Positions 38,800 to 43,800 of a stretch of 64,000 bases of DNA are shown in pieces (within the stretch, counting starts at the first letter, position 1; every line of letters starts with the position of its first letter). Under the pieces are notes generated by a model that saw nothing but the letters and a program-made list of their open reading frames with translations, did not search any database and was not told the DNA's origin. This DNA is from Mycolicibacterium pulveris. Its GTDB lineage: Bacteria; Actinomycetota; Actinomycetes; Mycobacteriales; Mycobacteriaceae. The position numbers and the translations under genes were made by a program. The stretch covers positions 4,526,001 to 4,590,000 of the forward strand of contig NZ_AP022599.1 in assembly GCF_010725725.1 (NCBI RefSeq). Direction: 5' to 3'.

Positions 38800-39690
38800 C
38801 TAGCCGCGAAACCCCGGGCCGCGGCGGCGCAGGTAGCGCTCGAACTCGGCGGCCAGCGCGTCGCCGTCGATCTTGCCAAGCACCTCGTGCAGGTCGACCT
38901 CGGCGTCGCCGCGCTGCTCGAGCGACTGCACGTACTCGGCGATCTCGTCGTCGTCGGCCGTCATCTCGGAGACGAGCTGTTCCCACTCCTCGGCCTGCGC
39001 GGGCAGGTCGCCCAGCGGCACCTCGATGTCGAGCACGTCCTCCACGCGGCGCAGCAGGGCCACCGTCGCCTTGGGGCACGGCGGCTGCGACACGTAGTGC
39101 GGCACCGCCGCCCAGAACGTCACCGCCGGGATGCCCGCCTGCACGCAGGCATCCTGAAACACCCCCGCGATACCGGTCGGGCCCTCGTAACGGGTCTCCT
39201 CCAGCCCGAACGTCTGCGCCGAGTCGGGCGAGTAGGCCGCCCCGGACACCGGCACCGGCCGGGTGTGGGGCGTGTCGGCCAGCAGCGCGCCCAGGATCAC
39301 CACGGTCTGCACGTGCAGCTTGTCGGCGATCGCCAACAACTCCGCGCAGAACGTCCGCCAGCGCATATTGGGTTCGACCCCGTTCATCAGCACGATGTCG
39401 CGGTCCGAACCCGGAGGCCGGCAGTGCGAGATGCGCATCGAGGGCCACACCAGCTCGCGGGTGACGCCGTCGACCTGGCGGATCACCGGACGGTTGACCT
39501 GGTAGTCGTAGTACGACTCGTCGTCGATCTCCAGGATCGGTTCCGCCTCCCAGACCGCCTCGAGGTGCTCCAGGGCGTCGCTGGCGGCATCACCGGCGTC
39601 GTTCCAGCCTTCGAAGGCGGCAACGACGATCGTGTCGTTGAGTTCGGGCAGGCCAGGCTGTCCGTGGCCGCCCGCTTGCGACGAGGTCAC
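38800..39690 (-). CDS. PAC2-family protein (proteasome assembly chaperone 2-like)
   Basis: ATP-grasp-neighbour/PAC2 superfamily protein of 296 aa conserved in actinobacteria. Motifs include VVAAFEGWNDAGDAASDAL at the N-terminus, LLADTPHTRPVPVSG, and FWAAVPHYVSQPPCPKATVALLRRVE in the middle; the C-terminal ~50 residues are acidic and helical. A role in proteasome assembly is a family-name inference and not established in mycobacteria, although proteasome genes lie 16 kb away. GTG at 39690 follows a -10 box at leaderless spacing. Confidence 0.85.
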   Translation of the reverse strand: MTSSQAGGHGQPGLPELNDTIVVAAFEGWNDAGDAASDALEHLEAVWEAEPILEIDDESYYDYQVNRPVIRQVDGVTRELVWPSMRISHCRPPGSDRDIVLMNGVEPNMRWRTFCAELLAIADKLHVQTVVILGALLADTPHTRPVPVSGAAYSPDSAQTFGLEETRYEGPTGIAGVFQDACVQAGIPAVTFWAAVPHYVSQPPCPKATVALLRRVEDVLDIEVPLGDLPAQAEEWEQLVSEMTADDDEIAEYVQSLEQRGDAEVDLHEVLGKIDGDALAAEFERYLRRRGPGFRG

Positions 39691-39702: not shown

Positions 39703-39741
39703 AGGCTTGTCGCCGGATGGGGAGGACCATCACCTCACAAG

Positions 39742-39758
39742 CCTGCTTGCACAGCAGG
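39742..39758 (+). other. Small hairpin in the PAC2-metH gap
   Basis: CCTGCT (39742-39747) and AGCAGG (39753-39758) form a perfect 6-bp stem over a 5-base loop, directly before TACCCT at 39761-39766. It could be an operator between the divergent promoters. Confidence 0.35.
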
Positions 39759-39772
39759 ACTACCCTGTCGAT

Positions 39773-39877
39773 GTGGCTGATGGGAAACAGCGCGCGTTCG
39801 GCGCCCAGCCGCACCCGGTCAGACGTCATCGCGACGAAATACGTTCGGCGGTAATCGGGTTAACCAAGGGTGGTTAG
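39773..39877 (+). CDS. Possible leaderless small ORF (34 aa) upstream of metH
   Basis: GTG at 39773 follows TACCCT (39761-39766) by six bases, the leaderless arrangement seen for many genes here. The peptide VADGKQRAFGAQPH... is basic, has no cysteine run, and ends at TAG 39875. A one-base frame change near 39868 would continue it as WLGVAHDLADEIYELSRTGTAG..., ending at TAG just before the riboswitch with strongly coding-like third positions. So it is either a short upstream ORF or the remnant of a ~66-aa gene. I recognise no family. Confidence 0.35.
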   Translation: MADGKQRAFGAQPHPVRRHRDEIRSAVIGLTKGG

Positions 39878-39972
39878 GAGTTGCCCACGATCTTGCCGAC
39901 GAGATCTACGAGCTGTCGCGCACCGGTACGGCGGGGGTCGAGACGTTTGATCGGGAGACGACGTAGACTCTT

Positions 39973-40070
39973 CCCCGCCGAGAGGCGTTGCAACGGATAC
40001 CTGGGGACAGGGTCCCCGCTCGGTATCCGCCACGCTCGGCGAAGTCAAGGACGCCTTCCGCTAAGGAAGG
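39973..40070 (+). ncRNA. S-adenosylhomocysteine (SAH) riboswitch upstream of metH
   Basis: P1 pairs GCCGAG (39977-39982) with CTCGGC (40035-40040). The core AGGCGTTGCAAC aligns with the SAH consensus GAGCGCUGCAAC. P2 is GGATACC/GGTATCC (39995-40001, 40022-40028), P2b GGGGAC/GTCCCC (40003-40008, 40012-40017). Pseudoknot P4 pairs AGGCGT (39983-39988) with ACGCCT (40051-40056). CCTTCC (40054-40059) can instead mask the ribosome-binding site GGAAGG (40065-40070), and this excludes P4. Binding should therefore expose the site and switch MetH on. SAH elements are mainly known before ahcY and related methyl-cycle genes; mapping to this class is by my alignment. Confidence 0.85.
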
Positions 40071-40077
40071 AGTGCAC

Positions 40078-43800
<3,723 letters not shown>

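Follow-up and report, generated by a model that had tools for sequence, protein, structure and literature searches.

The leader of metH, the gene of a B12-dependent methionine synthase in the window (the whole 64,000-nucleotide stretch of Mycolicibacterium pulveris DNA that was analysed), very probably contains an aptamer of the S-adenosylhomocysteine (SAH) class, and from its sequence and modelled folding it is predicted to be a translational ON switch that frees the Shine-Dalgarno (SD) sequence by means of the P4 pseudoknot. By comparison of sequences, it qualifies as a well-supported further SAH riboswitch, of a kind that is already known. A broader reading is slightly favoured: Actinomycetes would possess an SAH riboswitch subtype of their own, the mycobacterial copies of which fall below the database cut-off; a single strand would serve both the pseudoknot and the anti-SD helix, yielding a minimal translational ON switch for SAH disposal; and in mycobacteria a riboswitch-metH cassette would have displaced a riboswitch-free metH at a fixed locus, splitting the genus into gated and ungated members.

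Identity and architecture of the metH leader

The metH frame (40078..43800, + strand, GTG start, 1240 aa) is assigned by family scans to TIGR02082 with 1724.7 bits, together with PF02574, PF00809, PF02607, PF02310 and PF02965. When the segment 39850-40150 was scanned by cmscan without a cut-off, the leader was matched by the SAH riboswitch model RF01057 at 39974-40063, over the full length of the model (1-78), with 35.8 bits and an E-value of 2.7e-5. The gathering cut-off of this family is 37 bits, a database rule and not a biological trait, and the leader is 1.2 bits short of it, which is why a default Rfam scan of the window lists tRNA alone. In a search of the whole 5.48 Mb genome at E <=0.001, the metH leader is the one place found by RF01057 (E 1.2e-4). 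The fold of 39960-40090 is also better than that of shuffled sequences (z -3.2), with one of 200 shuffles equally good. An SAH-type riboswitch before metH had been proposed in the first-pass annotation, along with a covariance search as a check; the search bears the proposal out, with a match that is significant though sub-threshold.

On the + strand, the aptamer region (39974..40063) comprises P1 (39976..39981 pairing with 40036..40041) and P2 (39994..39999 pairing with 40024..40029), both placed by the Rfam alignment and the sequence, the conserved TGCAAC core, and the P4 pseudoknot, the strands of which, AGGCGT (39983..39988) and ACGCCT (40051..40056), were placed by the sequence and by comparison with relatives. 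An extra hairpin, GGGGAC/GTCCCC, sits atop P2 at 40003..40017, inside an insertion relative to the Rfam model. On the same strand follow the anti-SD CCTTCC (40054..40059), the first three bases of which are also the end of P4, and the SD of metH, GGAAGGAG (40065..40072); the GGAAGG within it (40065-40070) pairs with CCTTCC and ends 7 bases ahead of the GTG start at 40078. The P4 strands, CCTTCC and GGAAGG had all been named in the first-pass annotation and lie where it had put them.

Eight positions in the conserved part of the leader (seven with an upper-case consensus letter, one with a lower-case letter) depart from the Rfam consensus. Each strand of P4 contains three of them, and the other two are 40033 and 40049. 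These eight positions form four pairs, all of which are still paired. In P4, G-C is replaced by A-U, A-U by G-C and C-G by U-A, while the predicted long-range pair between C40033 and G40049 (both + strand) replaces G-C by C-G. The earlier remark that both P4 strands differ from the usual bases and nevertheless pair is thus accurate for three of the six P4 pairs, which are altered on both sides. Together with a 19-base insertion on P2 and a linker that is 7 bases shorter, such clade-specific changes of the core plausibly account for the score below the cut-off. With R1, a covariance model built from 30 leaders, the window leader reaches 88.3 bits at 39973-40059, a score to be read in the light of its belonging to the R1 training set.

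Covariation of the pseudoknot and of the anti-SD helix

To assess the P4 pairing more widely, public genomes were scanned with a pattern in which the P4 hexamer could be any sequence and parts of P1, the core and the P2-P1 joint were prescribed. The pattern matched at least 120 stretches; 80 loci were analysed, and they include some chance matches in coding DNA. A six-pair P4 partner following an AA[CG]N anchor occurs in 50 of these 80, whereas in 1000 hexamer shuffles the mean is 15.8 and the number never exceeds 25. Several versions of P4 are used: AGGCGT/ACGCCT in Mycobacterium and a few others, AGGCGC/GCGCCT in Frankia, Actinokineospora and Actinoplanes, GAGCGC or GAGCGT/GCGCTC in Proteobacteria, GGATGC/GCATCT in Acinetobacter, and also GGGCGC/GCGCCC. 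The predicted pair 40033/40049 alternates between C/G and G/C: in the 50 loci with a full P4, the equivalent positions are C/G in 30 and G/C in 20, and nothing else. Every one of the 193 parsed leaders from actinobacteria has the C/G form.

Inside Mycobacterium, P4 is almost invariant (among the leaders fetched first, the 5' core is identical in 130 of 130 and the 3' strand in 129 of 130), and the covariation of P4 is therefore one between clades and not within the genus. The pair that closes the loop of the anti-SD hairpin has no covariation within Mycobacterium either (75 of 96 standard pairs versus a shuffle mean of 75.9), and within-genus covariation was rejected as a proof on both counts. 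In a tree of 60 actinobacterial MetH sequences (FastTree, midpoint-rooted), no P4 pair has both sides changed on one branch; the sides of pair 6 change three and six times and those of pair 1 four and zero times, with G-U steps.

The anti-SD/SD helix consists of six Watson-Crick pairs in 131 of the 132 Mycobacterium leaders and of five plus a wobble in the remaining one; CCTTCC itself hardly varies within the genus. Among the 61 leaders from other actinobacteria, which represent 50 distinct segments, a helix of six Watson-Crick pairs is present in 49, in four versions: CCTCCC/GGGAGG (28), CCTTCC/GGAAGG (12), CCTCCG/CGGAGG (8) and CCTCCT/AGGAGG (1); the other 12 have a wobble or a mismatch, including L180, which lacks a convincing helix. 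When each anti-SD is scored with its own SD, 151 distinct segments attain 895.5, versus a mean of 840.6 and a maximum of 851.5 in 1000 shuffles that ignore kinship; for the 50 segments from outside Mycobacterium the score is 290, versus a mean of 262.9 and a maximum of 272 under the same procedure. For these distinct-segment tests only, leaders present in both a named and an unnamed record were counted once. On the MetH tree, anti-SD position 4 changes twice, each time together with its SD partner on the same branch and from T-A to C-G; the partner changes twice more by itself. Position 6 has four changes and its partner six. Two coincide on a branch, and one of the two results in a G-A non-pair, which may be a parsimony artefact. 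The covariation of the helix hence rests on few independent events, namely the two double changes at position 4.

The anti-SD and P4 share bases 40054-40056 in the sequence, which makes them mutually exclusive. This overlap and the covariation of anti-SD and SD across Actinomycetes agree with the earlier claim that CCTTCC can pair either within P4 or with the SD. The comparative evidence for the putative expression platform of the metH leader is good. One variant leader, L397 of genome G099, has an anti-SD hairpin in which both stem and loop are longer.

Proposed switch mechanism

In the SAH riboswitch class, ligand binding stabilises P4, which is part of the ligand-bound fold. For the metH leader, the ligand is presumably SAH and the action presumably on translation, with MetH increasing with SAH in the following manner: In the absence of ligand, CCTTCC would pair with GGAAGG and hide the ribosome-binding site of metH. 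Upon SAH binding, the P4 pseudoknot is likely to be stabilised and would take the first three bases of CCTTCC, freeing the site. A build-up of SAH would be a sign of homocysteine from SAH hydrolysis, and the additional MetH would remethylate this homocysteine.

Folding calculations are consistent with such a switch. In the window leader alone, the SD is buried (mean unpaired 0.00), and it opens to 0.56 when the P4 strands are withheld from other pairs, which serves as a stand-in for the pseudoknot, the energies of pseudoknot and ligand lying outside the calculation. With the P4 strands blocked in this way, the SD becomes more open in 129 of 132 Mycobacterium leaders and 59 of 61 others (medians 0.52 and 0.39); its openness exceeds 0.5 in 80 of the former and 18 of the latter, so that the site is about half open in the model. 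The P4 duplex amounts to -8.3 kcal/mol and the anti-SD hairpin (40054-40070) to -8.6 kcal/mol. Since blocking the P4 strands makes the fold of the window leader 15.6 kcal/mol worse, the leader would be off by default, and the energy difference would have to come from P4, the ligand and tertiary contacts. P4 is complete at position 40056, before the SD is transcribed, and would thus be favoured if SAH is present. Of the 132 Mycobacterium leaders, 127 have a TANACT motif 15-16 nt ahead of the GAG core; in the window it corresponds to a predicted -10 element, TAGACT (39964..39969, + strand). This conservation suggests that the RNA starts at P1, with a predicted start at about 39975-39977, the first P1 bases.

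Among the alternatives, a tentative one retains the aptamer and its ligand and assigns the control mainly to Rho-dependent termination in the leader or at the start of the gene, triggered by the hidden SD. By eye, no hairpin with a T run follows the anti-SD hairpin, which makes an intrinsic terminator unlikely, and premature termination is described for the metE and ppe2 riboswitch leaders of M. tuberculosis in the accessible passages of PMC11260477. The covarying element, however, is the SD itself, which suggests that the translational step comes first. It is much less probable that the hairpin hides the SD permanently, or answers to temperature or to a protein, and that the aptamer-like part is no longer an SAH sensor. 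The anti-SD hairpin is stable by itself, yet Proteobacteria and Actinomycetes alike have retained the core, P4 and the C40033-G40049 pair through compensating changes, and related leaders are located ahead of ahcY and of an adenosine deaminase gene.

Distribution in Actinomycetes and downstream genes

In the sample of 248 Mycobacterium genomes, R1 has a match in 223 at E <=0.01; subtraction of a noise match in G105 leaves 222, the weakest of which has an E-value of 7e-11. Both R1 and R2, a second model, were trained on some of the leaders that they later found. The G105 match scores 28 bits in a genome with another type of metH (see below) and was counted as noise. Comparison with relatives, which the first-pass annotation had also suggested, hence finds the element in 222 of 248 genomes of the genus, with P4 kept in several versions across phyla. 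None of the 248 genomes reaches the cut-off of RF01057, so that annotation based on this cut-off would miss the element, which a mycobacterial model such as R1 would catch.

RF01057 matches at E <=10 occur in 241 of 248 genomes; they were set aside as uninformative about carriage, as eight of 14 control genomes also score. Weak R1 matches, i.e. second places in 14 genomes and the one in G105, were dismissed as noise by their scores (<=33 bits, E 1e-4 or weaker). A second R1 place in G211 has 65.5 bits and is located at a contig end; it may be a second copy or an assembly duplicate. Two genomes with weaker R1 matches, G116 and G226, have the usual core and a longer P1-P4 linker, and the leaders L326 and L327 carry an insertion in this linker, with core and anti-SD hairpin as usual.

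Across the family, R1 matches 32 of 301 genomes (most of them Mycobacterium) in four of 31 genera. Across the class, RF01057 matches 42 of 394 genomes at E <=0.001, with 19 over the cut-off, including metH leaders of other Actinomycetes; R2, which was partly trained on these class matches, finds 74 of the 394 at E <=1e-5. For the set of parsed leaders, L388 was left out and L396 was kept despite an R1 score of 37 bits.

The genes that follow the 193 parsed leaders are metH (182), ahcY (3), an adenosine deaminase gene (1) and a methyltransferase gene (1); four leaders have too little flank (L071, L092, L109 and L192) and two are without an assigned gene (L382 and L386). In Mycobacterium, metH was confirmed downstream of 129 of 132 leaders, the flank being too short in three, and the first 30 loci all have metH. 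Family scans identified ahcY after L180 and L255, adenosine deaminase after L384 and a methyltransferase domain after L392; the gene after L259 was called ahcY by its likeness to that after L255. These five leaders may belong to a wider actinomycete SAH regulon. A genome of the same order, G856, has two copies of the element, L381 and L386, one before metH and one before a short frame.

SAH hydrolase converts SAH to adenosine and homocysteine, of which MetH uses the latter and adenosine deaminase the former; from these pathways, downstream genes for MetH, AhcY and adenosine deaminase point to SAH as the ligand. SAM and SAH are only one methyl group apart, and the aptamer might instead bind SAM, or SAM and SAH alike, and report methionine sufficiency, in which case the release of the SD would be a wasteful feed-forward. 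According to the accessible part of PMC2864571, a small SAM/SAH aptamer does bind both, whereas the SAM and SAH classes validated earlier discriminate by orders of magnitude. Moreover, the core of the metH leader is that of the SAH class except for paired changes, and metH, ahcY and adenosine deaminase make up a gene set for SAH disposal. All this renders a SAM sensor improbable, and SAH remains the preferred ligand.

Relation to known riboswitches

The actinomycete element resembles RF01057 of Proteobacteria in P1, P2, the TGCAAC core, the CAA before the 3' strand of P4, P4 itself and a gene of the SAM cycle downstream. It differs in several respects: (i) P4 is mostly AGGCGY/RCGCCT, as opposed to GAGCGY/GCGCTC in Proteobacteria; (ii) the positions equivalent to 40033 and 40049 are C and G instead of G and C; (iii) the element is located mostly before metH, and the 3' strand of P4 runs straight into the anti-SD, unlike in the proteobacterial representatives. 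For Proteobacteria, ahcY and metF are reported as core targets, with metH in Comamonadaceae (PMC4239095, in the passages accessible). SAM-II, SAM-III and SAM/SAH riboswitches are likewise small aptamers, mostly pseudoknots, that act on the ribosome-binding site; in these, however, the ligand hides the site (PMC10907184, accessible passages), whereas in the metH leader it is predicted to release it.

In 2013, Sun and others described SAH riboswitches in Mycobacteriaceae (PMC3766115); the accessible text passages concern the same RNA family and the same bacterial family and give no gene, structure or mechanism for Mycobacteriaceae, and the riboswitches described there probably include the window leader. 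A search of the literature on SAH riboswitches in mycobacteria and actinobacteria, with subscription journals mostly outside its range, found no study of the window leader by title or start of abstract. The accessible parts of two articles from 2022 (PMC9495176 and PMC9495366) contain nothing on mycobacterial SAH riboswitches, and in three articles of 2021-2025 on B12 and methionine in mycobacteria (PMC8088520, PMC12713380 and PMC11260477) the main text, as far as accessible, is without 'SAH' or 'S-adenosylhomocysteine'.

Two types of metH at one locus

A search for MetH was made in 21 of the genomes without a convincing R1 match, five further genomes without a match being left out. Fifteen of the 21 have only another MetH, which is 38-39% identical to the window MetH over about 830 residues; in one, the window type is truncated at a contig end, and in the remaining five no MetH was found. 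No loss of the riboswitch before a window-type metH was found among these 21. When 118 genomes of the genus were searched with the other MetH as well, 101 had the window type, 11 the other type, six no match, and none both. All 101 genomes with window-type metH are R1-positive; among the 11 of the other type, R1 gives the noise match of G105 and nothing more. Two of the six genomes without a match, G099 and G112, do carry the riboswitch: in G112 metH is cut by a contig end, and in G099 (leader L397) it extends over two frames, apparently split near residue 131, for which a sequencing error is a possible cause. A chance likeness in a GC-rich leader, to which the RF01057 score under the Rfam cut-off might point, is already contradicted by this linkage to one type of metH and by R1 matches with E 7e-11 or better in 222 of 248 genomes, and can practically be discarded.

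The two types occupy the same locus. An intact other metH is found there in 15 Mycobacterium genomes that lack the riboswitch, and the same PAC2-family neighbour adjoins these 15 loci, the first 30 riboswitch loci, L326 and L327; in the window, this is a divergent gene at 38800-39690 (PF09754). No known RNA family was matched before the other metH at 18 loci (Rfam, E <=0.5), in a scan that also missed the elements of L326 and L327, and R1 gave nothing convincing in the genomes from which these loci come.

Between the PAC2-family gene and the riboswitch of the window lie broken pieces of the other metH, both on the + strand. The first (39727..39800) stems from a different metH without a riboswitch, of which it represents the promoter region and the first codons; by blastn it is 77% identical to L340 over 74 nt (E 1e-10). 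The second (39817..39933) is a coding piece covering about residues 71-105, which matches the other MetH by blastx with 44% identity over 39 residues (E 4e-5) and has no match to the MetH of the window. At 30 of 32 riboswitch loci there is nucleotide similarity to the other metH or to the region upstream of it (E <=0.001), in some cases short and ahead of the start codon; coding fragments of the other metH are found at 18 of 33 loci (E <=0.01), none of which resembles the window's own MetH. The simplest reading of these sequences is that, in mycobacteria, a riboswitch-metH unit replaced a riboswitch-free metH in place. Outside Mycobacterium, relatives of the PAC2-family gene stand beside a riboswitch-bearing metH in five loci.

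Cobalamin riboswitches and the metE isozyme

The B12-free methionine synthase is encoded by metE. The same genome has two cobalamin riboswitches over the cut-off of RF00174, one before metE (L399; PF08267) and one before a FecCD-family transport permease gene (L398; PF01032). By its position, the former controls the other methionine synthase, and it differs from the metH leader in ligand and family (RF00174). Since metE is located behind a cobalamin riboswitch, each methionine synthase isozyme would have a sensor of its own. If the proposed switch holds, the B12-dependent methionine synthase of most of the sampled mycobacteria would be under direct control by SAH, beside the B12 riboswitch of metE, and this control would help to explain the balance of the metH and metE isozymes. 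A third cobalamin riboswitch place in the genome (L400) scores below the threshold.
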